DNA of 55,148 nt from an uncultured Anaerolineales bacterium. GTDB taxonomy: Bacteria > Chloroflexota > Anaerolineae > Aggregatilineales > Aggregatilineaceae. Position 1 is the stretch's first letter. Every line of letters starts with the position of its first letter. This document shows, piece after piece, positions 75 through 16,188 of the stretch. The notes beneath the pieces were generated by a model. It was not told the DNA's origin and did not search any database. It was given only the letters and a program-made list of their open reading frames with translations. The translations under genes and the position numbers were made by a program. The DNA lies in the NCBI GenBank assembly GCA_937135955.1, contig CAKZOB010000056.1, forward strand, positions 1 to 55,148. Direction: 5' to 3'.

Positions 75-1319
75 CTAACGTGCCGCGCCCACCAGGCGCG
101 GCAGACGCTCCTCCAGCGGTTTGTCCACCTGCAAGCCCTGGAAAGCGGGCAGGTAGCGCATCCCCAGGCTGAAGATCAGCGCCAGAATGGCCAGGATCAT
201 GAAGGCAGTGGCCCACTCTGTCCAGGCCGGTGTGTAGGAGCTGATCAACGGGTCGGTGAGCGGTGGATTGCGGGAAAGCGGCTCAGTGAAGGCCAGCAAC
301 GTGGTGTGATAGCGGTTGAAGGCCAGCCCCGACGCTGTCAGTCCGCTGCCGATGAGCAGCATCATGATGCTATTGCGGAAGCGCGCGCGGATCAGCAGAT
401 AGGCAGCCAGCAGACCGCCGAGCAGGATTTCCCATGTCCAGAAAGTGAGCGCGAACGTCCCCGCCGAAAGCGTCGTGAAAGCTTCGGTGCGCCCTGGCAC
501 ATAGCCGTAGTTGCCCGCTGTCGTGTCCCAAAAGCGCATGTAGAGGTAGATCAGCAAAATCGCCCCCGCGAGCTGCCCGGCCTGGAACAGCACTCTATCC
601 GGCACCAGCAGTCTGCCGCTCAGCCATTCCACGATCAGGGTCAGATGAACGGAGAAGGCAATGCCCGCCGCCACCGCCGAGACGATGAACAGCAGCGGCA
701 TAGTCGGGCGGAACAGCGCCGCGCGCCCCACCACCACACCGTAGGTGCCGCCCAGGCTGGATTGATGCAACAGCGACAGCCCCATGCCCACGATAGCCAG
801 CACCGGCGCGAAGCGATGCACGCGGTGTCCCAGTTCGCGCAACCAGGGCAGCCGGTCGAAGAAGGGCAGCTCGACCACCATGGGGAACACCTCCAGCGTC
901 AGCACCAGGAAGTAGAAGGTGATGCACATCGTCACTTCCCAGAGCATGGAGTGAATGTTCCAGAAAACCCAGCCATGCCAGAAGCGATCGGGCCGCCCAA
1001 TGTCGAGCAAGAGCGCCATCAACGCGCCGCTGTAGCCGAGAATGCCAATGAAGACCGCCACCCGCGCCAGAGGTCGGTAGGATTCTTGCCCCAGCAGGTA
1101 GGTCAAAGCCGAGAGCGAGAAAGCCCCCGCGCTCAGGCCGATGCACGTCAGATCGAGGATGATCCACAGCCCCCAGGGCGTGCCATCGGTCAGGTTGGTG
1201 ACCACCAGACCCTTGGTGAAGATAAGAAACGCAGCGTAGAGGCCAACAACGATCACCACCACCAACAGGCCAATCCACGCCCAGAACAGGTTGATTCTCT
1301 GCCGTAGCTGATTCAGCAT
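75..1319 (-). CDS. NrfD/PsrC-family quinone-interacting membrane subunit
   Basis: The 414-residue protein is almost entirely hydrophobic, with about nine or ten predicted membrane helices starting near residue 11. Its pattern (early helix ending in a TKGL turn, conserved small/aromatic residues, charged cytoplasmic loops such as DIGRPDRFWHG near residue 106) fits the NrfD/PsrC/HmcC family. These anchors exchange electrons with menaquinone and carry no cofactor in most members. It lies 15 bp downstream of the ferredoxin gene in a minus-strand operon with a 17-heme cytochrome. I infer that it links the quinone pool to the periplasmic cytochrome through the ferredoxin. The direction of flow (quinol oxidation or quinone reduction) cannot be read from the sequence. 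The operon may continue beyond the left edge. Confidence 0.85.
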   Translation of the reverse strand: MLNQLRQRINLFWAWIGLLVVVIVVGLYAAFLIFTKGLVVTNLTDGTPWGLWIILDLTCIGLSAGAFSLSALTYLLGQESYRPLARVAVFIGILGYSGALMALLLDIGRPDRFWHGWVFWNIHSMLWEVTMCITFYFLVLTLEVFPMVVELPFFDRLPWLRELGHRVHRFAPVLAIVGMGLSLLHQSSLGGTYGVVVGRAALFRPTMPLLFIVSAVAAGIAFSVHLTLIVEWLSGRLLVPDRVLFQAGQLAGAILLIYLYMRFWDTTAGNYGYVPGRTEAFTTLSAGTFALTFWTWEILLGGLLAAYLLIRARFRNSIMMLLIGSGLTASGLAFNRYHTTLLAFTEPLSRNPPLTDPLISSYTPAWTEWATAFMILAILALIFSLGMRYLPAFQGLQVDKPLEERLPRLVGAAR

Positions 1320-1334
1320 GATCCCCTTCCCCCT

Positions 1335-2123
1335 TTACGTGGGCAGCAGGTAGTACACGCGCGGCTTGGTGCCCAGTTCTGGACGCAGCACCACCGCCTG
1401 CCGCCCCTGCATCTTGCGCGATGCCGGGCTGTTCGGGTCGCGCAGGTCGCCGAAGACGCGCGCCTCCGTCGGACAGATGACACAACACGCTGGCGTAGCC
1501 GCGCGGTCGTAGCCGGGGCGCAGACCTCGTTCCAGCCCGGCGTCTATGCGATGCGAGCAGAAGGTGCATTTTTCGGCCACGCCGCGCGGGCGACGCCGCA
1601 CTTCGGGCGTGCCCCAGGTGGGGGCCATGGGGTTTTCCTCGTTGTTTTCCTCCCAGTTGAACACACGCACCCCGTAGGGACAGGCCACCATGCAATACCG
1701 ACAGCCGATGCAGCGCTGATAGTCCATCGTCACCAGGCCGTCCGGGCGATGATAGGTTGCCTTGACGGGGCAGACTTCCACGCAGGGAGCATGTTCGCAA
1801 TGCATACAGGGGCGCGGTAGGAAGACCGGCTTACCGAAAGTCTCCTCATCGCGCAGGACAATGTTCCACAGGTGACCGGTTGCAGTATCATTGGTCGCCT
1901 GGCAGGCAAAGGCGCAACGCTCGCAGCCAATGCAGGTTTGCAGGTCAATGACCATGGCCCAATAGGGGCCACCGCCTTCTCCATGCGCGGTCACCTCGCC
2001 GATGGGGTTATCGTGCGCCCAGAACTCTTCCCACACCCAGGCCCCAGCCGCCGCGCTGAGGCCCAGCGCCCCCACCAGCTTGACGAACTCGCGCCGGTTG
2101 AGCCGGCGGATGTATTCACTCAT
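1335..2123 (-). CDS. Tat-exported four-cluster [4Fe-4S] ferredoxin subunit (HybA/PsrB/NrfC-like)
   Basis: The 262-residue protein begins with a twin-arginine signal (NRREFVKLVG, residues ~9-18, followed by a small-residue hydrophobic stretch), so it should be exported folded. Four cysteine clusters follow: CIGCERCAFAC (~residue 64), CMHCEHAPCVEVCP (~106), CIGCRYCMVACP (~138) and a split CTFC...ACCVICP set (~187-218). This is the pattern of the periplasmic electron-transfer subunits of NrfD-type complexes, which bind four [4Fe-4S] clusters. It sits 13 bp after the multiheme cytochrome gene and 15 bp before the NrfD gene, so the three are co-transcribed. Expected role: an electron wire between the NrfD subunit and the heme subunit. 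Confidence 0.9.
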   Translation of the reverse strand: MSEYIRRLNRREFVKLVGALGLSAAAGAWVWEEFWAHDNPIGEVTAHGEGGGPYWAMVIDLQTCIGCERCAFACQATNDTATGHLWNIVLRDEETFGKPVFLPRPCMHCEHAPCVEVCPVKATYHRPDGLVTMDYQRCIGCRYCMVACPYGVRVFNWEENNEENPMAPTWGTPEVRRRPRGVAEKCTFCSHRIDAGLERGLRPGYDRAATPACCVICPTEARVFGDLRDPNSPASRKMQGRQAVVLRPELGTKPRVYYLLPT

Positions 2124-2136
2124 TGGGTACCTCCTG

Positions 2137-4545
2137 CTATCGCAACAATGATTTCAGCCGTATCAGCAGGAATACGACAGCAACGACTACCAAAGCGCCC
2201 AGCGCGCCGCCCACCAGGTCTGCGGTGCGTGTGTCGTCAGCCTCTTGTTGCAGGCGGGCTACCTCGGCCTCCAGTTGACGCACGCGCTCCAGTTCTTCCG
2301 GCGACAGCCCCATTTCACCGCGCGCGCTCAGCAGGTGCGTATTGCCATGGCATCCGGCGCACACGCTGGGATCAATGGCCATCGTGTGACCGGTGACTTT
2401 GATCTCTTCGCCGTTGGTGATCACGCGCTTTTGCATATGGCAGTCCACGCAGGTCATGTCGTCGCCCATGTGCACCGGGTCCACCAGCGCTTCCTGGTGA
2501 CACGAGCCACAGGTCGTGTTGACATCGCCCAGGATCAGGCCGTTCTCGTGCGGCGTGTGGCAATCCACGCAGTCCACGCCCGCCACGCGGTGCCGACTCA
2601 CCAGCCATTCGTCATTCTGCGGAGCATGGGCACCGCTGTGGCAACGCGCGCAGTCCTGCGGCTTGTTGGCAATCTCCACCGCTCCCGGCGGGTGCTGCAC
2701 ATCTCTGGGCAGAATATGGCACGTGCTGCATACCACGCCCTCGAATACATAAGTGCCCGTATTCGGGTCGAAGCCCGACGCATGACAGCTCATGCAGATC
2801 GTGGGACGGCCCTGGCTGGCGTAGTCTTGCAGGAACGTCTCGTTGAGCGAGGCCCGCGCGTGCGGCGAATCCTGCCAGCGACGGAACTCGTCGCGGTGAC
2901 ACTGAGCACACTGCTCGGGATCGACCGTTTGCGACAGCAGAGAGGCCGTCTCTGGCGCGATCACCTTCAGCAGGCCCAACTCCACTTCAACAACATGGAG
3001 CAAAGCATCGGTATAGGGGAAGTTGTGAATACCCAGGCTGCCGTCGTTGGCCACAAAGGTCAACACCGTATCCACCCAGGCGGGCGCGTCCGGCCTGGTG
3101 GCGAGCGCTTCCTGGGCTTTGCTCAGCCGTGCGGCAACGCCATTCTGGGTCTTCTCGACAAACGTCTGGAGATAGTCGCGCGTCAGGTCGGTGTGACAGG
3201 TTGTGCACGAGTCCGGGAAGCATTCCGTCAGGTCGGTGCACAGGGCCGTTTCCATGGTATGACTGCCAACGCGACCGTACTCTCCCACGAACGTTGTCTT
3301 GGGCATGTGGCAGGTCTCGCATGTCGGCCCGCCCTCTGTCGTGAAGTGGCCGGAAGGAATGCCCCGTACCACCGGCACAACTTGCTGCCCTTCGTACATT
3401 TCCTGTGCGCCATAGTGCAGCTTGCCCCCGACCAGCATGGTTTCACCGTCGGGGGTCTTGCTGTTGTGACACGACACGCACAGTGCATAGCGGTCGGCTG
3501 GTGTATCCAACGATGGTTCATTTTCGCCATGCGGACTGTGACAGGCCACGCAGGTCACGCCCGCGGCCACCACTTCCGGATCAGTGCTCCCCGTGGTGTG
3601 GCAGCGCGCGCAGTCCCCAGGCAACGGCCCCAACGCCTGCCCGTGACCGCTCTTAAGCCATTCCGCATACTGGTTGTATACCTTGGCGTGTCCGGTTGAC
3701 CACCAGACCTGCTCGTCGTCCTCCGCCGTCAGCACAAACACATTCTCGTCGAGCGGCAGACCGGGTTGATACCCAACTGGATATGGATGTACACCATCCG
3801 CACTGAGTCCCTGGACATGGCACTGCCCGCAGACAGCGGCGTCTACGCCTTTGTAGATCGTGCCCGCTGTGCCCATATGCGCGCCGCCGGGGCCATGACA
3901 CGCCTCGCAGCCGACGTTCAGCTCCACCGCGCCCGTGTCCCACTCCTCGGCGAAGGCGAACACGGTCTGCTCGGCAGCTTTCGCCCCGTCCAGGCCGGTA
4001 GTGTGGCAACCCGCGCAGGCCACGCGCCAATCACGCTCCGGCAATTGCCAATCGTCGCCTTCCTGTACCGTCCACGTCCCCTGCTGATCTTCGGTCTGTG
4101 GCACGTTCCAGGTCACCGGCAGCACATAGTAAGCCAGCGAGCCGTCGGCGCGTTCCTGCACGCTCACGTACTGCTCGATGTAGCGCCCACCCAAAACATA
4201 GGTGATATCTTCGACGCTCAGGGGGCGCTGTGTTCCGTCGGGCCAGGTGATCACCGGACGTGCCCCCGCCGAAAGATCGCCGGAGATGTTTTCCGGCGTG
4301 CCGGGGCGCACCATCCGCGCGTGCCATGTCGTATGGTAGGTTTCGCTCTGGGTGTGGCACAGATTGCAGAAGCGCGATCCCTTATATTCGGCTCCCAGGT
4401 TGGGCGGGTTGCTCTGCTGACCAGGCATGGCATGGGCTGTGTCCGCCTGTTCCAACGCCCAGAGGAGCACGCCCAGGCTCAATAAGGCCAGGCCCACCAG
4501 AGTCAGCCCCCACACCCGCAAATGTCCATGCCATTGTTTAGTCAT
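2137..4545 (-). CDS. 17-heme membrane-anchored cytochrome c
   Basis: I count 17 CXXCH heme-binding motifs in 802 residues, the first (CNLCH) near residue 60 and the last (CAGCH) near residue 729. An N-terminal hydrophobic segment (~residues 11-30) ending in THA serves as signal or anchor. A short Leu/Glu-rich coiled coil near residue 750 leads to a C-terminal membrane helix and a basic tail (RLKSLLR). Local motifs such as WQDSPHA, TTWHA and WLKSGH supply distal His ligands, as in cytochrome c554-type multiheme proteins. I chose the ATG at 4545 because GGGGAGAA precedes it; an upstream in-frame ATG at 4665 adds 40 non-signal-like residues. It is the first gene of the ferredoxin-NrfD operon. 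The layout is reminiscent of HmcA (16 hemes), but homology to HmcA is not established. Confidence 0.9.
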   Translation of the reverse strand: MTKQWHGHLRVWGLTLVGLALLSLGVLLWALEQADTAHAMPGQQSNPPNLGAEYKGSRFCNLCHTQSETYHTTWHARMVRPGTPENISGDLSAGARPVITWPDGTQRPLSVEDITYVLGGRYIEQYVSVQERADGSLAYYVLPVTWNVPQTEDQQGTWTVQEGDDWQLPERDWRVACAGCHTTGLDGAKAAEQTVFAFAEEWDTGAVELNVGCEACHGPGGAHMGTAGTIYKGVDAAVCGQCHVQGLSADGVHPYPVGYQPGLPLDENVFVLTAEDDEQVWWSTGHAKVYNQYAEWLKSGHGQALGPLPGDCARCHTTGSTDPEVVAAGVTCVACHSPHGENEPSLDTPADRYALCVSCHNSKTPDGETMLVGGKLHYGAQEMYEGQQVVPVVRGIPSGHFTTEGGPTCETCHMPKTTFVGEYGRVGSHTMETALCTDLTECFPDSCTTCHTDLTRDYLQTFVEKTQNGVAARLSKAQEALATRPDAPAWVDTVLTFVANDGSLGIHNFPYTDALLHVVEVELGLLKVIAPETASLLSQTVDPEQCAQCHRDEFRRWQDSPHARASLNETFLQDYASQGRPTICMSCHASGFDPNTGTYVFEGVVCSTCHILPRDVQHPPGAVEIANKPQDCARCHSGAHAPQNDEWLVSRHRVAGVDCVDCHTPHENGLILGDVNTTCGSCHQEALVDPVHMGDDMTCVDCHMQKRVITNGEEIKVTGHTMAIDPSVCAGCHGNTHLLSARGEMGLSPEELERVRQLEAEVARLQQEADDTRTADLVGGALGALVVVAVVFLLIRLKSLLR

Positions 4546-4710
4546 CGAACTTCTCCCCGGTATGGGCATCTCCAGCGCAAAACGCTTTCGCAGTCTCGCC
4601 GTAGAGCCAAAGTCGTAGCATATGGCGAGAAGACTTCTTGCAAATTTCCTATGCGCAACCCCCACATCTTCTGCTATGCTAAAGGCCAGAATGCTGAGGA
4701 GGTCGCTATC

Positions 4711-4896
4711 ATGGAACTCGGTTCGATCTTGAATGTCACAGGTTTCTTCCTGTTGCGCATCGGTTTGCCAGTGGTGCTACTTGTCGTGCTTGGCATGCTG
4801 ATTGACCGCTGGCAGAGAGCACGCCGCAGTGCCGTAGACACGGCTGAGTTTGACTCGCTCGAAAACTCTGCCAACCATCACGAGCACGGCCACTGA
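4711..4896 (+). CDS. Small single-helix membrane protein with His-rich C-terminus
   Basis: A 61-residue ORF with a near-perfect ribosome site (GAGGAGGT) 8 bases before the ATG. Residues ~10-33 form one hydrophobic helix (FFLLRIGLPVVLLVVLGML), followed by a basic stretch (RWQRARR), an acidic segment and a terminal HHEHGH tail. I do not recognise the family. It is transcribed divergently from the multiheme cytochrome operon, with 165 bp between the starts, so it could be an accessory or assembly subunit of the redox complex. The His tail might bind metal. The strong Shine-Dalgarno and sensible topology make it likely to be real despite its size. A possible -10 (TATGCT) lies at 4675-4680 with no convincing -35. 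Confidence 0.7.
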   Translation: MELGSILNVTGFFLLRIGLPVVLLVVLGMLIDRWQRARRSAVDTAEFDSLENSANHHEHGH

Positions 4897-6206: not shown

Positions 6207-6491
6207 ATGCAGCGACGATTCAGGGTTTGGCTATTGATAGCAGTAGGCGCGTTGTTACTGGGCGCTGCGGCGCTGCTATATAGCGCAACCAGCCCCGCTG
6301 CCGCAGCCTGTAACACTGCGCCATCAGCCACCTCGCCGGTGAGAGGGGCGCACCAGGGCGCTCCGGCTGACCTGGCCCTGGTGCAGGCGGCGGGTGAGGG
6401 ATGCCTGAACTGTCACGCCGACCAGGAGAAAGTCAAGGCGCTGGCAGTCGAAGAAGAACCCGCCGAGAGTCTCTCCGAAGGGCCTGGTTGA
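6207..6491 (+). CDS. N-terminal fragment of an 11-heme cytochrome c (ends at in-frame TGA)
   Basis: The 94-residue ORF has a Sec signal peptide or anchor (RRFRVWLLIAVGALLLGAAALL, split here as residues ~3-24) with a likely cleavage region at SPAAAAC, and one heme motif (CLNCH, ~residue 68). It ends at TGA 6489-6491. The reading frame simply continues after the stop as a ten-heme cytochrome that lacks any export signal. I therefore read this and the next entry as one gene interrupted by a nonsense codon, by a sequencing error, or (less likely) expressed by readthrough. It is divergent from the LysR gene. The ribosome site GTGGAGTGAGCT precedes the ATG. Confidence 0.75.
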   Translation: MQRRFRVWLLIAVGALLLGAAALLYSATSPAAAACNTAPSATSPVRGAHQGAPADLALVQAAGEGCLNCHADQEKVKALAVEEEPAESLSEGPG

Positions 6492-6500
6492 GGGGGATCG

Positions 6501-7724
6501 GTGCCTCCGTTGGAGGCGTGGGAGAAAGTCTGGATCAACCTGGACACCTATGGCAGCGACTTTCATGCTTACATCAAGTGCACCGCCTGCCATGGCGGCG
6601 ACCCCGATGCTACCGACATGGAAACCGCTCACCAGGGGCTGATCCTCGATCCGTCGAGTGTGCCGCTGTCCCCGTGCAAATCGTGTCACGAAGAAATCTT
6701 CGTCAGTGCGGCGGACAGCCTGCACAACACCCTGGCCGGCTACGACACCGCCCTTTACGAACGCAGCAGCCCTGAGCATTACCAGGCGCTCGAAACCATG
6801 CAGTCCTATCACTGCAACAGTTGCCATGCCACCTGCGGCGATTGCCATATCAGTCAGCCCAATTCGGTAGGAGGTGGCTTGCTGGACGGACACGCCTTCG
6901 TGAAGACTCCGCCCATGAGCCGCACCTGCACTGCCTGTCACGGCAGTCGCGTGAAGAACGAATACTTCGGGCTGAACGAAGGTGTTCTGGGAGATGTGCA
7001 CCTGCGGCAGGCGCGGATGGCCTGCACAGCTTGCCACACCGCCGAGGAAATGCACGGCATGGGAGCTGCCAGCGGTTCGGCTCACCGCTACGACGGGGCG
7101 GAGAATCCTTCTTGCGAAAGCTGCCATGCCGATCAGATCGGCCCACAATCCGGCATTCCGCAGCACATGGTGCACAAACCGGACACGCTGTCTTGCCAGG
7201 CATGTCATAGCCTGAGCTATACCAACTGCACCAACTGTCATGTGGATCGCACCGAGGATGATGTGCCCTTCTACTCGGTAGAGGCACACTGGGTCGGCTT
7301 CTACCTGGGTCGTAACCCCATCCAGAGCGAAGATCGCCCCTATAAGTATGTGCCGGTGCGCCATGTGCCCATTGACATCAACTCGTTTAGCGCCTACGGT
7401 GAAAACCTGCTATCCAACTTCCTGACACGGCCCACCTGGACGTATGCCACACCGCACAACATCCAACGCATCACCCCGCAAAACCAGACGTGCGGCTCGT
7501 GTCATGGCAACGAAGCGATCTTCCTGACGGCGGACAAGGTGTCGGAGACCGAACGGGGCGGAGCCAACCTCAACGTCATCGTCGAAACCATCCCGCCGCT
7601 ATTCCCTGGTATGCCCACGCCCGAACCAACTCAGCCCCCTACCCCTGAGGAAGAAACAGGCGGCGAGGCTGGTGAGAGCGACGCTGACTTCTGGGGCAGC
7701 GACGGGGCTGCGGGCGGCGAATAG
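6501..7724 (+). CDS. Ten-heme C-terminal part of a split multiheme cytochrome c
   Basis: The 407-residue ORF contains ten CXXCH motifs (CTACH, CKSCH, CNSCH, CGDCH, CTACH, CTACH, CESCH, CQACH, CTNCH, CGSCH). It ends in a Pro/Thr linker and an acidic Gly-rich tail. There is no signal peptide, yet c-type hemes are attached only outside the cytoplasm, so as a separate protein it could not mature. It lies in exactly the same frame as the upstream 94-residue fragment, separated only by TGA and three sense codons. The GTG at 6501 follows a GAGGGGG sequence, so coupled re-initiation is formally possible. No membrane helix is visible, so the intact protein would be soluble or lipid-free outside the membrane. 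Its partner is likely the tetra-rhodanese or the NrfD-type complex. Confidence 0.8.
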   Translation: MPPLEAWEKVWINLDTYGSDFHAYIKCTACHGGDPDATDMETAHQGLILDPSSVPLSPCKSCHEEIFVSAADSLHNTLAGYDTALYERSSPEHYQALETMQSYHCNSCHATCGDCHISQPNSVGGGLLDGHAFVKTPPMSRTCTACHGSRVKNEYFGLNEGVLGDVHLRQARMACTACHTAEEMHGMGAASGSAHRYDGAENPSCESCHADQIGPQSGIPQHMVHKPDTLSCQACHSLSYTNCTNCHVDRTEDDVPFYSVEAHWVGFYLGRNPIQSEDRPYKYVPVRHVPIDINSFSAYGENLLSNFLTRPTWTYATPHNIQRITPQNQTCGSCHGNEAIFLTADKVSETERGGANLNVIVETIPPLFPGMPTPEPTQPPTPEEETGGEAGESDADFWGSDGAAGGE

Positions 7725-7936: not shown

Positions 7937-9598
7937 ATGCGGAAGTTCACCTTGTTCGCCCTGATCCTGGCGCTGATATTGCCGTTGGCGCTCCCCTTCG
8001 CCCCGGTCGCGGCCCAGGAAAACATCGTCGAAGCCCGGCTGGAGGCCTACAACGCCAGCCTGCCACCAGCTTATGGCAACGTTTCGGTTGACGATCTCTC
8101 GGTCGAGATGATCGAAAAGCCAGACCTGCTGATCCTGGATGTGCGCCAGCCAGAGGAATACGCCGAAGGCCATCTGCCGGGCGCGATCAACATCCCCCTG
8201 CGCGACCTGGCCAAGAATCTGGACGCCCTGCCCGATCTGAACGCGGAAATCGTCGTCTATTGCGGCTCGGGTTTCCGTTCGTCGATCGCCATGACTGCCC
8301 TGCAAATCCTAGGCTATACCAAAGTTCGCAATATGAAGGGCGGCTACGGGGCCTGGACTGCCGAAGAATACACCACCACAACCGAAGCGTTCGAGGCCGC
8401 GCGAGGCACCGTGCCGGAGATTGAGGCGGAACTGCTCGCTGCGGTAGACGCCGCTCTGTCGGGCATTCCTCAGGGCTGGGGGGCTATCAAAGCCGAAGAC
8501 CTCAACATCAAATTGATTGAGACTCCACCCGACCTGCTCATTGATGTGCGCAAAGTCGAGGAAGTGACCGAGCAGGGGTATATCGCCGGTGCGGTCAACT
8601 GGCCCCTGGAACAGTTCATGAGCTTTGCCGGCGAACTGCCCGAGGATCGCAGTGCGGACATCGTGGTTTACTGCGCGGCGGGGCATCGGGGCAACATGGC
8701 CGCGACCATGCTGCGCATCCTGGGTTACACCAATGTCATCAACCTGGCGGGCGGCTTCGGCGCATGGAGCACCGCGGGCCTGCCTGTGGAAAGCGCCGCC
8801 CCTGCTGCCGCGACCTTCGACCTGGCCGGTCTGCTGGATGCCTACATCAGCGGTCTACCTGCCAACTTCAACGCTATTCGCGCCGCTGATCTCAACGCGC
8901 TGCTGGCAGAGAATCCGGACATCCTGCTGGTAGACGTGCGCACCGCTGATGAATTCGAAGAAGGTCACCTGGCCGGGGCGATCAACGTGCCCCTGATCGA
9001 ACTGACCGATCATCTCGATTTGCTGCCCGACCTGAATCGGGACATGGTCGTCTACTGCGGCAGCGGCCATCGCTCCGCTATCGCCATGACGCTGCTCAAC
9101 CTGTTGGGCTATCAGAATGCCAAGAGCCTGCTGGGCGGCGTGAAAGCGTGGACGGCAGCCGAGCTGCCGATCACGACCGAGGTCGTCGAAGCGCAGGCGG
9201 GCACTGCCCCGCAGTTCGACCCCGACCTGCTCGCTGCTGTTGATGCCTACGTCAAAGCGATCCCCGCCGGCTTTTACGCCATCAGCGCCGACGACCTGAA
9301 CGTCACGCTGATTGAGAATCCGCCATACCTGATTGACGTGCGCACCAGCGAAGAGGTGGCCAAGGGTGTCATCGAGGGCGCGGCCCATATCGAACTGCGC
9401 TCCTTCGTGAGCCAGATGGATCAATGGCCCGCCGACAAAAGCCAGCCCATCGTGGTCTATTGCGGCAGCGGCCACCGCTCGGCCATCGCCATGGTGGCCA
9501 TGCAACTGCTGGGCTACACCGACGTACGCTCGCTGGCAGGCGGCATCGGGGCCTGGACAGCCAAGGAATATCCGCTCGTTATGCCCGTTGCCAACTGA
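7937..9598 (+). CDS. Exported protein with four tandem rhodanese domains
   Basis: The 553-residue protein begins with a Sec signal peptide (residues ~1-28, hydrophobic core LFALILALILPLALP, cleavage near VAAQ). Four rhodanese (sulfurtransferase) domains of about 130 residues follow, at roughly 45-155, 180-285, 315-420 and 450-550. All four keep the active-site Cys: YCGSGFRS, YCAAGHRG, YCGSGHRS and YCGSGHRS. Each domain also has the DVR motif and the GG-GAW end motif. Rhodaneses move sulfane sulfur through a Cys persulfide. Four active domains in one secreted chain is unusual; two is the common number. A strong ribosome site (AGGAGGT) precedes the ATG. Next to multiheme cytochromes and an NrfD complex, it likely handles polysulfide or thiosulfate sulfur outside the membrane. 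Confidence 0.93.
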   Translation: MRKFTLFALILALILPLALPFAPVAAQENIVEARLEAYNASLPPAYGNVSVDDLSVEMIEKPDLLILDVRQPEEYAEGHLPGAINIPLRDLAKNLDALPDLNAEIVVYCGSGFRSSIAMTALQILGYTKVRNMKGGYGAWTAEEYTTTTEAFEAARGTVPEIEAELLAAVDAALSGIPQGWGAIKAEDLNIKLIETPPDLLIDVRKVEEVTEQGYIAGAVNWPLEQFMSFAGELPEDRSADIVVYCAAGHRGNMAATMLRILGYTNVINLAGGFGAWSTAGLPVESAAPAAATFDLAGLLDAYISGLPANFNAIRAADLNALLAENPDILLVDVRTADEFEEGHLAGAINVPLIELTDHLDLLPDLNRDMVVYCGSGHRSAIAMTLLNLLGYQNAKSLLGGVKAWTAAELPITTEVVEAQAGTAPQFDPDLLAAVDAYVKAIPAGFYAISADDLNVTLIENPPYLIDVRTSEEVAKGVIEGAAHIELRSFVSQMDQWPADKSQPIVVYCGSGHRSAIAMVAMQLLGYTDVRSLAGGIGAWTAKEYPLVMPVAN

Positions 9599-11926: not shown

Positions 11927-12089
11927 CCAAAGATTGCCAAGCTCCACTGGGGAGCGCAGCCAGGCCCTGCTACGCTACTAGGTGAGAAACGGCGCACAGC
12001 CAATCAGCGTATGCGCGACCCCCGCAGAGTCGCGTATCAGCACGTACAGCGAAACCCTTGATCGCATCGGAGCCTTGGCGGAGTGGCAC

Positions 12090-13157
12090 ATGAGCCTGTA
12101 CATACTTCCAAAGGAAAGGTTGCCGGAGTTTGTCAGGGCGCTGCAGGGGAATTACCGCGTTGTCGGGCCGGTGAAAACCGAGCACGGCTTCGCCTTCGAC
12201 GACATCAGCGATCCCCAGCAGTTGCAGCTTGACTACACGACAACCATTCTCCCCCCAAAAAAGTACTTTTTGCCCCAGCGCGAGGTCTTGTTCTCCTATC
12301 ACACCGAGCAGGGGGACAACGGTCGGCAGCGCATCGAAATGCGCCCCGTCTATCAGGGCGTCGAGCCAACCGTGATCTTCGGCGTGCACACCTGCGACAT
12401 GAATGGCATCATGCTCTACGACAAAGTCTTCTCCGAAGGCTTTCGCGATGAGCACTACATGGAGCGGCGCGAGCAGATATACGTCATCGGCATCGAGTGC
12501 CTGCACCCATGCGACGAGGCGTCTTTCTGCAAGGACATGGGCACACTGACCGCCCCGCCCGTCTACGACCTGCACATGACCGACGCCGGCGACTTCTATT
12601 TTGTGGACACGGGCACCGAAAAGGGCGAGCGGCTGCTGCTGGATCATGTCTACGTCAAGATGGCGGAAAAGGAAGACATCCAGAAACTCGGCCAGATTCT
12701 GTCGTCCAAATGGCCGCGTTTCCGGATGCGCCTGAAGATGAGCCGTGACCAGACGCCTGCGCTGCTCACCCTGGGCTACCAGGCCAAACTATGGCAGGAA
12801 CTGGGCGAACGCTGCCTGGCCTGTGGTTCATGCACTAACGTCTGCCCGACCTGCTTCTGCTTCGACGTGATTGACGAGAACGACATCACCCTGCAGAACG
12901 GCGAGCGCGTGCGCGTGTGGGACTCCTGCCAGCTCTACGAGTTCGCGCTGGTGGCAGGCGGACACAACTTCCGCGAGAGCAAGGCTTCGCGCGTGCGTCA
13001 CCGCCTGATGCGCAAGGGCAAATACATCAAGCAGGTACACGGGCTGATCGGTTGCACAGGCTGCGGGCGCTGCGAACGGGCTTGCCTGGTACACATTACC
13101 GTCCCCGGCACGCTCAATGCGCTGCACGAAGAAATGCAGCTCGAGCCGGGTGTATAG
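12090..13157 (+). CDS. hyhB: Group 3b [NiFe] hydrogenase beta subunit, 4Fe-4S (HyhB/HydB-like)
   Basis: The 355-residue protein belongs to the sulfhydrogenase beta / anaerobic sulfite reductase A family. Its N-terminal two thirds resemble the HdrA/AsrA-like domain (GVHTCDMNGI and GIECLHPCDEASFC). Two ferredoxin-like clusters lie near the C-terminus: CLACGSCTNVCPTC (~residue 249) and CTGCGRCERAC (~325). It carries electrons between the flavin subunit and the small subunit. I chose the ATG at 12090; the upstream 36 residues look non-coding and match no family feature. It is the first gene of a four-gene operon in the same order as Pyrococcus hydBGDA. Confidence 0.92.
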   Translation: MSLYILPKERLPEFVRALQGNYRVVGPVKTEHGFAFDDISDPQQLQLDYTTTILPPKKYFLPQREVLFSYHTEQGDNGRQRIEMRPVYQGVEPTVIFGVHTCDMNGIMLYDKVFSEGFRDEHYMERREQIYVIGIECLHPCDEASFCKDMGTLTAPPVYDLHMTDAGDFYFVDTGTEKGERLLLDHVYVKMAEKEDIQKLGQILSSKWPRFRMRLKMSRDQTPALLTLGYQAKLWQELGERCLACGSCTNVCPTCFCFDVIDENDITLQNGERVRVWDSCQLYEFALVAGGHNFRESKASRVRHRLMRKGKYIKQVHGLIGCTGCGRCERACLVHITVPGTLNALHEEMQLEPGV

Positions 13158-13169
13158 GAGAGGCGCGCG

Positions 13170-14048
13170 ATGTTGCACTTGCACGAAAACCTCAAGACGA
13201 CTACAACGCCGCTGCGCTACGACGGTCACACTTCGGTCTTCTTGCCCGCAGTAGCGACCATCGAGGACGTGAAGACTGAGACAGCGCTGGAGAAAATCTA
13301 CACGGTGCGCCTGCCCGGCGGGCAGAACCTGGGCCATGTGCCAGGGCAGTTTGTTATGGTCTCGGTGCCCGGTGTGGGCGAAGCACCGATCAGCGTGATG
13401 TCGTCGCCCAGCCGCACCGGCGAGACCTTCAAACTGTGCATCCGCAAGGCAGGCGACTTGACCGGCGTCATTCATCTGCTGCAGCCGGGCGATCAGATCG
13501 GCATCCGCGGCCCCTTCGGGCGAGGCTTTCCGGTAGACACGTTCCGCGGCAAGGACATCCTCGTTGCGGCGGGCGGCCTGGGGCTGGCTCCGGCACGCTC
13601 GCTGATTGACGAAGTCCTCGATCATCGCTCGCAGTTTGGCCGCCTGATCATCCTGTATGGGGCCAAGAATCCGTCGGAAATCCTCTTCCGCGATGCCATC
13701 GCCGAATGGGAAGAGCGCGACGATGTCGAGTTCCTGATGACCGTTGACCGCCCCGATCCCACCTGGTTTGGGCACGTGGGCGTGATCACCACGCTGTTCC
13801 CACATGTCGAGGTCAACCCGTACAAGACTGTCGCGGTGACCGTCGGACCGCCGGTGATGTACCGTTTCGTCACCATGGAACTGCTGGGCAAAGGGCTGAC
13901 GCCAGAGCAAATCTGGCTCAGCTTCGAACGGCGCATGAAGTGCGGCATTGGCAAATGTGGCCACTGCCAGGTCAACCATCGCTACAGTTGCCAGGAAGGC
14001 CCGTCGTGGACCTACGCCGAAGCTCTGGCATTTGAGGAGGCGCTCTGA
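13170..14048 (+). CDS. hyhG: Group 3b hydrogenase gamma subunit, FAD/NAD(P)H-binding (HyhG/HydG-like)
   Basis: The 292-residue ferredoxin-NADP reductase-like subunit has an FAD-binding beta barrel (GQFVMVSVPGVGEAPISVMS, ~residues 58-77) and an NAD(P)-binding Rossmann part (ILVAAGGLGLAPARSLI, ~131-147). The C-terminal [2Fe-2S] site is C-GIGK-CGHC...C (~residues 253-274). It exchanges electrons with NAD(P)H in the cytosol. The start has GGAGAGG upstream, 12 bp after hyhB. Its TGA overlaps the next ATG by one base, indicating translational coupling. Confidence 0.94.
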   Translation: MLHLHENLKTTTTPLRYDGHTSVFLPAVATIEDVKTETALEKIYTVRLPGGQNLGHVPGQFVMVSVPGVGEAPISVMSSPSRTGETFKLCIRKAGDLTGVIHLLQPGDQIGIRGPFGRGFPVDTFRGKDILVAAGGLGLAPARSLIDEVLDHRSQFGRLIILYGAKNPSEILFRDAIAEWEERDDVEFLMTVDRPDPTWFGHVGVITTLFPHVEVNPYKTVAVTVGPPVMYRFVTMELLGKGLTPEQIWLSFERRMKCGIGKCGHCQVNHRYSCQEGPSWTYAEALAFEEAL

Positions 14049-14881
14049 TGGCGACGAAACCGAAAATCGCCTTCTTCGATTTCACCAGTTGTGAAGGCTG
14101 TCAGCTCACCGTCATTGACCTGCTCCAGACACACCTGGGCCTGCTCGACCTGGTGGAAATCGTGCAATTTCGCGAAGCCATGTCGGAAAAAGACGAAGAC
14201 TATCAGATCGCCTTCGTCGAAGGCTCGTGCACGCGCAAGGGTGACGAAGCTCGTCTGCTGCAGATTCGCGAGCAGGCCAGCATGGTCGTGGCGCTCGGTG
14301 CCTGCGCGCACCTGGGCGGCATCAACGCGCTGAAGAACCGCTGGGCGATCGAGAACGTCCAGACATATGTCTACGGCAAGAATGGCAAGGATGCCTACGA
14401 GAGCTATCCGGCACGCCCCATCTCCGCCGTGATCAAAGTGGACGCGGTGATCCCCGGCTGCCCGATCGATCGTTACGAATTCCTGCGCGTTGTGCAGCTC
14501 ATCCTGCAAGGGCGCAAACCACGCCTGCCCGACTATCCGCTATGCGTGGAATGCAAGCTCAAGGAAAACGCCTGCCTCAACACGCTGGGCAAGCCCTGTC
14601 TGGGGCCGATCACCCGCGCTGGCTGCAACGCCATCTGCCCGACCTATGGTGACGGCTGCGAAGGTTGCCGGGGCTGGCATCCAGAGGCCAACTTCACCTA
14701 CATGCGCGAGATTCTGCGCGGGCATGGTCTGTCGGACGCCGAGATTGACGCCCGTTTCACCATGTTCAACCACTATCAGTTCCAGCACATGGGCGACGAA
14801 GCGCCCATTACGACACCTATCTCGCCCGCCAAAGATGAGCCTCTGCCCACCTCAACCTTTGCCGCGCCGAAGGAGGCCTGA
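14048..14881 (+). CDS. hyhS: Group 3b [NiFe] hydrogenase small (delta) subunit
   Basis: The 277-residue small subunit begins with the proximal-cluster motif TSCEGCQ (~residues 14-20) and continues with EGSC, LGACAHLGG and PGCPIDRYEF, the standard ligands of the proximal [4Fe-4S] cluster. Cys-rich segments CVECKLKENACL, KPCLGPITRAGC and CPTYGDGCEGC (~165-210) provide the medial and distal clusters of the three-cluster type. There is no Tat signal, which fits a cytosolic group 3 enzyme. It is coupled to hyhG and 5 bp before the large subunit. Confidence 0.95.
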   Translation: MATKPKIAFFDFTSCEGCQLTVIDLLQTHLGLLDLVEIVQFREAMSEKDEDYQIAFVEGSCTRKGDEARLLQIREQASMVVALGACAHLGGINALKNRWAIENVQTYVYGKNGKDAYESYPARPISAVIKVDAVIPGCPIDRYEFLRVVQLILQGRKPRLPDYPLCVECKLKENACLNTLGKPCLGPITRAGCNAICPTYGDGCEGCRGWHPEANFTYMREILRGHGLSDAEIDARFTMFNHYQFQHMGDEAPITTPISPAKDEPLPTSTFAAPKEA

Positions 14882-14886
14882 CGACC

Positions 14887-16188
14887 ATGACTGAGAACAT
14901 CAAAGTCAACGTCCATCACGTCACCCGCGTCGAGGGGCACGGCAACATTGTCGTTGACGTGCGCGGCGGCACCATCGAAAAGTGCGAGCTGCAGATCGTC
15001 GAGTCCCCGCGCTTCTTCGAGGCCATGCTGCGCGGCAGGCCCTACCATCAGGCGTCGCACATCACCAGCCGCATCTGCGGCATCTGCGCCTGTGGCCATG
15101 CCACCGCCAGCCTGCGCGCCACCGAGCGCGCCCTGAAAGTCAAGCTCAGCGAGCAGACGATACGCCTGCGCAAGCTGGTCTTTCACGGCGAAATGCTCGA
15201 CAGTCACATCCTGCATGTCTACATGCTGGTTGCGCCGGACTTCCTGGGCGTGGGCAGCGTGATCCCGCTGGCCAAGACGCATCCGGAGGTCGTCAAGCGC
15301 GCGCTGCGCATGAAGCAGTTCGCCGGTGACCTGTGCGCCACCTTCGCCGGACGGCACACACATCCCATCGCCATGACCGTCGGCGGCTTCACCCAATATC
15401 CCAGCATGACCAGAGTCGAGGAACTGCGCGAACGCGCCGAGGCGATGATCGCCGATGTGGACGCCACCGTCGAGCTGTTCGGCACCCTGCCCTGGCCCAA
15501 CTTCGAGCGCGAGACTGAGTACGTGGCGTTGGTGCAGCCGGATGAGTACGGCTTTATTGACGGCATGATCGCCAGCAGCGACGGTTACACCCTGCCGGTC
15601 GAGCAATATCGCAGTGTGACCAACGAGCGCCTGGTGCCGCACTCAACCGCCAAGCACACTGCCTTCAACCGCGATAGCTACATGGTAGGGGCGTTGGCCC
15701 GCTTCAACCTGAAGCACGAGCAACTCCATCCGCGCGCCAAGGCTGCCGCCGAACACCTGGGGCTGCGCGCGCCGTGTTACAATCCTTTCCTCAACAGCGC
15801 GGCCCAGGTGGTGGAGATCGTGCACTGCGTGGACGATACCATCCGCCTGCTGGACGAGACGCTAACCCGCGGCATCACCTGGGAAGCTCCTGCGCCGGTG
15901 ACGCTCTCGCCGGGCGCGCGCGGCGTTGGGGCGTGCGATGTGCCGCGCGGCACGCTCTTCCACGAGTATCAGATCGGCGAAGATGGCCTGATCGAAGAGG
16001 CGAACTGCATCATCCCCACGGGCCAAAACCTGGGCAACATTGACCGCGACATGCGCGCCCTGGTGCCAAAGATTCTGACCGAGCCAGAGGATCAGATTCG
16101 CCTGAAGATGGAGATGCTCGTACGGGCCTATGACCCGTGCATTTCGTGCTCGACGCATTTCTTGAACGTCGAGTTTGTCGGCAAGTGA
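14887..16188 (+). CDS. hyhL: Group 3b [NiFe] hydrogenase large (alpha) subunit
   Basis: The 433-residue catalytic subunit carries both NiFe ligand motifs: L1 RICGICACGHATAS (~residues 58-71) and L2 DPCISCSTHF (~416-425). Nine residues follow the L2 His, consistent with a short C-terminal peptide removed by the protease encoded next. Together with HyhBGS it makes a cytosolic, bidirectional NAD(P)-dependent hydrogenase; some relatives also reduce elemental sulfur or polysulfide (sulfhydrogenase). GGAGGCC precedes the ATG. Confidence 0.96.
   Translation: MTENIKVNVHHVTRVEGHGNIVVDVRGGTIEKCELQIVESPRFFEAMLRGRPYHQASHITSRICGICACGHATASLRATERALKVKLSEQTIRLRKLVFHGEMLDSHILHVYMLVAPDFLGVGSVIPLAKTHPEVVKRALRMKQFAGDLCATFAGRHTHPIAMTVGGFTQYPSMTRVEELRERAEAMIADVDATVELFGTLPWPNFERETEYVALVQPDEYGFIDGMIASSDGYTLPVEQYRSVTNERLVPHSTAKHTAFNRDSYMVGALARFNLKHEQLHPRAKAAAEHLGLRAPCYNPFLNSAAQVVEIVHCVDDTIRLLDETLTRGITWEAPAPVTLSPGARGVGACDVPRGTLFHEYQIGEDGLIEEANCIIPTGQNLGNIDRDMRALVPKILTEPEDQIRLKMEMLVRAYDPCISCSTHFLNVEFVGK

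Follow-up and report, generated by a model that had tools for sequence, protein, structure and literature searches.

Electron transfer beyond the envelope of monoderm Chloroflexota has so far been poorly explained, and a locus at the start of a contig from an uncultured Anaerolineales bacterium (Aggregatilineaceae; GenBank assembly GCA_937135955.1, contig CAKZOB010000056.1) raises the question of whether one short gene set could carry electrons from the quinone pool to the outside. The stretch analysed, called the window below, is 55,148 nucleotides long; the contig begins at its first base, and the sequence past the NrfD gene of the locus lies outside the data for this genome. The original prediction, made from the bare sequence, described a 17-heme cytochrome, a ferredoxin exported by the twin-arginine (Tat) pathway and an NrfD subunit, with a tiny divergent companion; this set was borne out, and all four genes lie where it had placed them:

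75..1319, minus strand: NrfD-type quinone-reactive integral membrane subunit, 414 amino acids, QrcD-like (NF041784 QrcD model, PF03916)
1335..2123, minus strand: ferredoxin, 262 amino acids, Tat-targeted, with four 4Fe-4S clusters, of the DsrO/QrcC/NrfC type (NF045797 and QrcC scores)
2137..4545, minus strand: 17-heme c-type cytochrome, 802 amino acids, a fusion of an OcwA-like nonaheme and an octaheme domain, with 17 CXXCH motifs
4546..4710, no strand: intergenic stretch between the divergent cytochrome and small-protein genes, presumed from gene order only to be a promoter region
4711..4896, plus strand: 61-residue single-helix membrane protein, the divergent companion (alignment of 13 members, dN/dS, linkage)

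The cytochrome, ferredoxin and NrfD genes form one minus-strand operon, with the small open reading frame (ORF) upstream on the opposite strand. We propose, with a probability of about one half, that the operon encodes a three-subunit, membrane-bound, quinol-oxidising terminal reductase, which would share the electrical layout of NrfABCD and MccACD, would have its reductase and its heme wire in one chain, and would probably serve extracellular acceptors.

The cytochrome carries 17 CXXCH motifs, whereas 5000 shuffles of its residues gave 0.083 on average and never more than 3, and a pattern scan of the genome contigs recovered four whole-length relatives (42-88% identity) and three remote ones, the nearest named contigs being those of Anaerolineales UBA2029 (88%), Thermoflexus sp. 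BE2012_66_11 (75%) and Anaerolineae CHL4 (73%). It is a fusion of two domains, an OcwA-type nonaheme followed by an octaheme, arranged as follows (residue numbers leave out the initiator methionine):

4429..4542, minus strand: probable Sec signal peptide, residues 1-38, ending in TAHA (hydropathy and alignment read by eye)
2968..4410, minus strand: nonaheme domain of the OcwA-like terminal-reductase type, residues 45-525, with the three-helix region at its C-terminal end (hmmsearch against 6i5b, AlphaFold2 model)
2338..2922, minus strand: wire domain with eight hemes, at about residues 541-735, resembling MtrA/DmsE/NrfB in sequence (profile matches, that to TIGR03508 below its cut-off)
2140..2301, minus strand: coiled-coil stalk and C-terminal transmembrane helix, residues 748-801, the membrane part at about 776-794 (model, hydropathy)

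OcwA is reported to be a nonaheme surface terminal reductase of Thermincola (PMC6703420), and residues 45-525 of the cytochrome align end to end with the Thermincola potens protein (6i5b; phmmer E 5.6e-43). A profile of 15 orthologues, namely 15 of the 16 fused proteins then known with that of genome G028 left out, matches 6i5b at E 2.1e-87 in hmmsearch, with the nine CXXCH motifs collinear and the three-helix region included. In the AlphaFold2 model of the cytochrome (predicted local distance difference test score, pLDDT, 71.7; predicted template modelling score, pTM, 0.59), residues 45-523 superpose on 6i5b with Z 27.6 and a root-mean-square deviation of 3.1 over 423 aligned residues, the second-best structure being the 11-heme Carboxydothermus protein 6qvm (Z 20.1). 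What sets the domain apart from OcwA itself is that it forms the N half of a fused, membrane-tethered chain carrying eight extra hemes. Hydropathy places two helices in the cytochrome, at residues 12-30 and 776-794. The protein had been predicted to be doubly anchored, which is unlikely: Ala38 is invariant in the 15 aligned orthologues, all of which have a small or aliphatic residue at -3 (alignment read by eye), and since the N-terminal helix ends in such a signal-peptidase-like site, a cleaved signal peptide is likelier than a second anchor; the N-terminal membrane anchor was accordingly set aside.

The C half holds eight CXXCH motifs, and its best family is TIGR03508 (DmsE/MtrA decaheme), which it reaches with 73.4 bits against a cut-off of 192.2. 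A profile of this half matches MtrA (6r2q) at 1.2e-16 and NrfB at 1.5e-8, so that, as far as sequence can tell, it would be a wire-like domain resembling MtrA/DmsE/NrfB; OcwA is matched by this profile as well (2.7e-18). The C half differs from the decahemes in having eight hemes rather than ten, a score under the cut-off and a C-terminal helix as tether. The end of the chain forms one 53-residue helix in the model, in which a coiled coil, recognised by eye, runs into the membrane helix (hydropathy 2.93); a coiled coil and a C-terminal helix had been predicted. Structure prediction of the heme subunit, which had been suggested as a check, thus gave a clear answer for the N half and no decisive one for the fold of the C half.

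Turning to the membrane module, the twin arginine and the 16 cluster cysteines of the ferredoxin are invariant across 20 aligned sequences, in agreement with the four clusters predicted for it. Its top score is with DsrO (NF045797; 202.3 bits, cut-off 200), followed by QrcC with 171.7 against 400; a DsrO identity was rejected, for the cut-off is passed only narrowly and the adjoining NrfD disagrees, scoring 45.3 with DsrP against a cut-off of 350, so that of the DsrMKJOP set one component is just reached and the other is not. The NrfD subunit matches PF03916 and scores best with QrcD (NF041784; 290 of the 570 bits required), ahead of HmcC (132), HybB (115), DsrP and NrfD proper (24 of 347.6); a phmmer search of the PDB with it returned no match up to E 1. 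The models of QrcD, HmcC and HybB each match all 23 homologues in the alignment, with the lowest E-value for QrcD. Mutants of QrcD have shown that D70, Y110, S138 and Y150 are essential, whereas D120A keeps about two thirds of the activity, and the same work equates D58 of Escherichia coli HybB with QrcD D70 (PMC13059093). In the protein studied here D56, Y96, D106, S124 and Y136 have QrcD-like spacing and are invariant in the 23 sequences; D56 pairs with HybB D58 by alignment, while the QrcD residues themselves were matched by spacing. At E up to 1e-6 the window's genome, G000, holds no other such NrfD besides a remote 32-bit match, and no other octaheme of the C-half kind.

In light of these identities, we propose that the QrcD-like NrfD would oxidise menaquinol on its outer side and hand the electrons to the Tat-exported ferredoxin, whose four clusters would relay them to the octaheme C half, held at the membrane by the coiled coil and the C-terminal helix, and from there to the OcwA-like nonaheme head for delivery outside the cytoplasmic membrane. 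The most likely acceptor would be extracellular, such as a metal oxide, a humic or flavin shuttle, an electrode or a partner cell. This outward reductase is argued for by the full-length OcwA homology of the N half in both sequence and model; by the wire-like C half and a QrcD-best NrfD that keeps the five residues studied in QrcD; and by gene linkage, as a ferredoxin gene follows the fused gene in all 22 loci that have one and an NrfD gene is next in 21 of 21 where the contig reaches (that of G008 ends within the ferredoxin gene, and NrfD of G028 is in two frames). The survey of neighbourhoods in relatives that the original prediction had recommended therefore finds the three genes together. 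Octaheme, ferredoxin and NrfD also occur together where the OcwA domain is lacking; seven such octaheme loci share LysR and decaheme neighbours with the window, three loci carry the parts as separate genes, and a sensor kinase and regulator pair accompanies 11 of the 22 fused loci, all of which further favour the outward reductase.

Several observations weigh against it. In OcwA the pairs His281/His282 over heme 2 and His380/His381 over heme 5 lie at hemes that are both open, and heme 9 has His-Met coordination (PMC6703420). The heme-2 pair is found in none of 24 N-domain proteins (12 fused, 12 standalone); of the heme-5 pair, 23 of the 24 retain His376, with His or Tyr as the usual next residue (Tyr in the window). 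With the heme-2 pair absent and heme 5 changed, reactivity may differ from that of OcwA despite the shared fold. His399 is likewise invariant in the 24 at the position of an aligned OcwA Met, so heme 9 may be bis-His here rather than His-Met, although the available text of that paper names no ligand Met. The separate model of the C half is of low confidence (pLDDT 67, pTM 0.52) and gives no decisive fold match (Foldseek to 6r2q at E 1.6e-3, VIA Z 5.6; best Z 7.5). Finally, the QrcD and NhcC relatives of the NrfD subunit run in the opposite direction, from cytochrome to quinone (PMC13059093, PMC8076601).

Alternatively, the complex might be a dedicated reductase working in the manner of NrfABCD or MccACD, whose OcwA-like head would be the catalytic site for a soluble compound of nitrogen or sulfur, for instance nitrite, hydroxylamine, sulfite or a similar oxyanion. 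The N-half model does share the superfamily fold of the octaheme nitrite reductases (ONR), MccA and NrfA (Z 9.5-11.6), and two-component genes of the HisKA_3/LuxR type lie near many fused loci; nitrate and nitrite sensors have HisKA_3 and LuxR-type domains. The cytochrome has no CXXCK heme motif, which counts against such a function, though some NrfA proteins also lack it. OcwA reduces nitrite slowly and turns over hydroxylamine as well (PMC6703420), by analogy with which a soluble substrate is possible, and MccACD is itself a complex of a multiheme reductase sharing the superfold, an iron-sulfur (Fe-S) protein and an NrfD subunit (PMC8076601); the similarity to MccA is one of fold alone (Z 11.4). 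As OcwA is the best match by a wide margin over NrfA or MccA, and the OcwA heme-2 pair is lost, we regard a soluble-compound reductase as unlikely, if a serious competitor.

The direction of flow poses a second problem, since the NrfD subunit is closest to QrcD and keeps its essential residues, and Qrc is a cytochrome c3:menaquinone oxidoreductase (PMC13059093). As in Qrc and Nhc, electrons might thus come in at the nonaheme head from an external donor or a partner cell and end up on menaquinone at NrfD, and the [NiFe]-hydrogenase genes near the complex in the window (ORFs recognised by eye) and in locus L043 (here and below, L numbers denote loci and G numbers genomes) would suit such a flow. 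However, the cytochrome and ferredoxin genes leave no room for a QrcB-like gene between them (cytochrome to 2137, ferredoxin from 2123), the QrcD and QrcC scores are far under the curated cut-offs, and OcwA is described as a reductase, on which grounds we consider inward flow improbable.

The neighbouring genes raise a third alternative. In the window, 6207-7724 (plus strand) encodes a multiheme cytochrome that would have 11 CXXCH motifs if read through an in-frame TGA at 6489-6491, and the following gene, 7937-9598 (plus strand), a protein of four rhodanese stretches; the pair recurs beside octaheme-ferredoxin-NrfD loci in relatives. The TGA is kept in 12 of the 12 homologues examined, within the context SxGxG-TGA-GGxxxPxE, and is followed by a perfect GCCTCC/GGAGGC hairpin in which L072 and L077 show a compensating change of a C-G to a G-C pair; the window genome has SelB and tRNA-Sec, and L032 has SelA and SelB right after NrfD. 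The protein is therefore a probable selenocysteine cytochrome, although Rfam models of the selenocysteine insertion sequence (SECIS) find no match there and the folding of the sequence after the TGA is not striking in the window (z -0.37) or L042 (-0.83), with somewhat lower values in L061 (-1.68) and L064 (-2.27), both of which count against this interpretation. Comparisons with ExtKL (up to E 0.01) and MccSep (up to E 1) gave no match to it. In L060-L062, L064, L071, L073 and L077 the octaheme complex has a LysR gene and this decaheme cytochrome as neighbours, an arrangement shared with the fused complex of the window. From this recurrence of the octaheme-ferredoxin-NrfD core beside LysR, the TGA-bearing decaheme and sometimes the rhodanese protein in seven relatives lacking the OcwA domain, it could be argued that the complex is a quinol:cytochrome hub that passes electrons sideways to the probable selenocysteine decaheme and other secreted cytochromes and is no terminal reductase; yet the mapped stretches of the fused loci in families f8 (L043-L047, L049, L050), f7 (L051, L052) and f2 (L127) contain no decaheme match, and we give this alternative very little credence. 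Further along the window, 11982-16188 (plus strand) holds a likely [NiFe]-hydrogenase operon, and in the fused-gene locus L043 hydrogenase genes directly follow NrfD; these had at one point been taken for cytochrome biogenesis genes. The L032 and L043 loci are the two relatives in which the genes after NrfD were typed.

The gene set can also be set against characterised systems. NrfABCD has the same layout by inference, namely a reductase, a heme wire, a four-cluster Fe-S protein and NrfD (PMC8076601), but here reductase and wire are one chain and the match to the NrfD family is poor. MccACD differs in its reductase, which is here an OcwA-type nonaheme joined to an octaheme domain. QrcABCD supplies the closest NrfD family and a close Fe-S family; however, the three-gene run has neither QrcB nor the hexaheme QrcA, and the scores reach about half of the cut-offs or less. 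The Hmc and Nhc complexes of sulfate reducers likewise join a multiheme cytochrome to Fe-S and NrfD subunits, but the window cytochrome does not match the HmcA family (NF045713) at E 0.1 and has the OcwA and octaheme domains instead. The predicted resemblance to Hmc, Qrc and Nrf complexes was therefore right as to architecture, with a membrane module that is QrcC/QrcD-like, and overlooked the two-domain OcwA fusion.

How widespread the fusion is was examined in genome samples of increasing breadth. The fused gene is present in 22 of 154 genomes of the order, including that of the window: 19 are full-length by profile (start <=18, end >=814), to which are added G028, split over frames, and G704 and G298, which have a divergent N half and 17 and 16 CXXCH motifs, respectively. 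Of the four further genomes that share the window's genus, G001 (80% complete) gave no match. Among 298 genomes of the class (E 1e-100) the full-length matches are five from the window's own order, plus the partial one of G298, and among 400 genomes of the phylum (E 1e-150) nothing matches besides the window's own genome; the fusion was thus not found outside its order in the genomes sampled, at thresholds that would miss remote forms. Outside the order, G109 and G269 encode 18-CXXCH proteins that match the profile over the N half only. Unfused relatives are frequent, both as standalone N halves and as octaheme, ferredoxin and NrfD lacking the OcwA domain, and L055, L069 and L070 (G006, G041 and G036) have a separate OcwA-like protein, a 9-CXXCH protein, ferredoxin and NrfD. 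The kinase and regulator pair of the 11 fused loci is homologous to that of L042, and in L042 and L043 it consists by Pfam of a HisKA_3 kinase and a LuxR-type regulator; these genes of about 530 and 220 residues near the small ORF had been considered as ResB/CcsA, which the Pfam typing rejects.

Trees of the two halves tell different stories. They included 13 fused proteins (the near-copies L046 and L047 being left out), together with 12 N halves from standalone proteins and 13 C halves from unfused ones; G298, G790, G715, G747, G791 and G704 stand outside the alignment and the trees, and G738 is L034 again. The 13 fused C halves form one clade (support 100/99), sister to the unfused octahemes of L058 and L059, whereas the fused N halves are not united: three changes are required in the free tree, at least two of them forced by well-supported branches. 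A single clade of fused N halves is rejected by the approximately unbiased (AU) test (p 0.0034, with the log-likelihood lower by 216), which compared 11 fused with 10 standalone sequences once L033 and L050, both near-copies, and two rows that were long or divergent had been dropped. Consistently, the window N half has 48-54% identity to the standalone nonahemes of G043 and G014 against 36-38% to the fused proteins of family f8, while its C half has 55-57% identity to the fused C halves of f8. With C halves forming one clade and N halves not, an exchange of heads on a constant base would explain the pattern, although repeated duplication and fission of fused genes could do so as well.

Other multiheme genes were also seen in relatives. 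A recurring trio of a standalone OcwA-like nonaheme, a 9-CXXCH protein and a cytochrome b561 plus cytochrome c protein lies at 6015-10077 of L042; its identification rests on Pfam in L042, on BLAST in L128 and L129, and on size and heme count in L044, L047, L050, L053 and L068. Outside the order, L131 (8659-17999) and L132 (5805-8861) have huge multiheme ORFs of 18, 22 and 32 CXXCH, those with 18 containing an OcwA-like domain.

The small protein is real. Between G000 and G002 its ORF shows a nonsynonymous divergence (dN) of 0.20 and a synonymous divergence (dS) of 1.41, the latter near saturation, and the resulting dN/dS of about 0.14 indicates purifying selection; the 13 members aligned have one helix and the pattern F..R.G.P.......G...DRW...R, with nine invariant columns. 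Whereas the divergent ORF of the original prediction stands, its HHEHGH tail is not conserved, for the His tail is variable and is missing in several of the 13, and the idea of a conserved metal site was rejected. Those of the small proteins that were scanned match nothing in Pfam or NCBIfam. Within the order the small gene does travel with the complex, being present in 15 of the 22 fused loci (one, in G030, with a broken frame). It was not found in G028, G044 (where only 3.1 kb upstream are available), G056, G790 and G791; in the remaining two, G738 and G747, the kinase gene runs off the contig. It lies directly divergent to the cytochrome in some loci and beyond the two-component pair in family f8. 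The 11 loci of the order that have the octaheme but lack the OcwA domain (L058-L062, L064, L071-L073, L075 and L077), some of them on short contigs, yielded no small gene.

Relatives of the small protein extend across the class, with matches in 54 of 298 genomes (E 1e-3). In the 24 loci that this yielded outside the order their scores are low, about 28-40 bits, so that linkage is the stronger evidence: an NrfD, ferredoxin or cytochrome c profile matches within flanks of about 1.5 kb in 21 of the 24, and with longer flanks (22 of the 24, L113 and L118 being left out) at least one of the cytochrome, ferredoxin and NrfD genes lies beside the small protein in 19 and all three in 14. None of the three adjoins it in L139, L149 and L152, and several of the five others end at a contig edge. 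A rough estimate from genome size puts chance linkage far below that observed. The L133 complex, the only class-wide relative typed, is Hmc/Hyb-like and scores well with the HmcB, HmcC and HybB models, so that the small protein may belong to complexes of more than one branch of NrfD. Two or three such one-helix proteins occur per cytochrome-ferredoxin-NrfD cluster in L142, L145, L147, L154, L156 and others, and the remote members in L133 (4995-5591) and L134 (4295-4678) have a C-terminal Cys/Trp-rich segment resembling PCW...C...C...PCW...C..C. We infer that the small membrane protein would be a probable accessory of the complex, acting in assembly or docking and not as a metal-binding partner.

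Combining these two lines, we suggest, with rather more hesitation than for the reductase itself, a wider picture in which the quinone module, the ferredoxin and the tethered octaheme would be a constant base bearing fused or exchanged OcwA-type heads, so that one chain with 17 hemes would lead from the quinone pool across the monoderm wall, and in which the small one-helix protein would be a new class-wide accessory subunit of cytochrome-ferredoxin-NrfD complexes.

The literature searched on extracellular electron transfer in Chloroflexota and Anaerolineae, on NrfD and on OcwA, which covered few subscription papers and some texts in part, contains no description of this complex. The view of it as an undescribed conduit between quinone and exterior holds in so far as none of the families tested has this subunit set, and does not extend to the subunits, which are of known kinds; what appears new is the covalent joining of an OcwA-type reductase to a wire beside a quinone module. 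Relatives of OcwA and OmhA with 5-17 hemes have been reported mainly from uncultured organisms (PMC7829351), and as these reach 17 hemes, 17-heme relatives may already stand in that tree. Anaerolineales genomes with many multiheme cytochromes are reported to have no porin-cytochrome complexes, probably because a Gram-negative envelope is lacking (PMC7399161). In such bacteria the fusion of an OcwA-type reductase to a wire, next to a quinone module, means that a route from quinol to the outside may fit in three genes; the apparent swapping of heads on a shared base points to an evolvable means of switching acceptors, and the small protein is a candidate subunit beside many complexes of the Anaerolineae.

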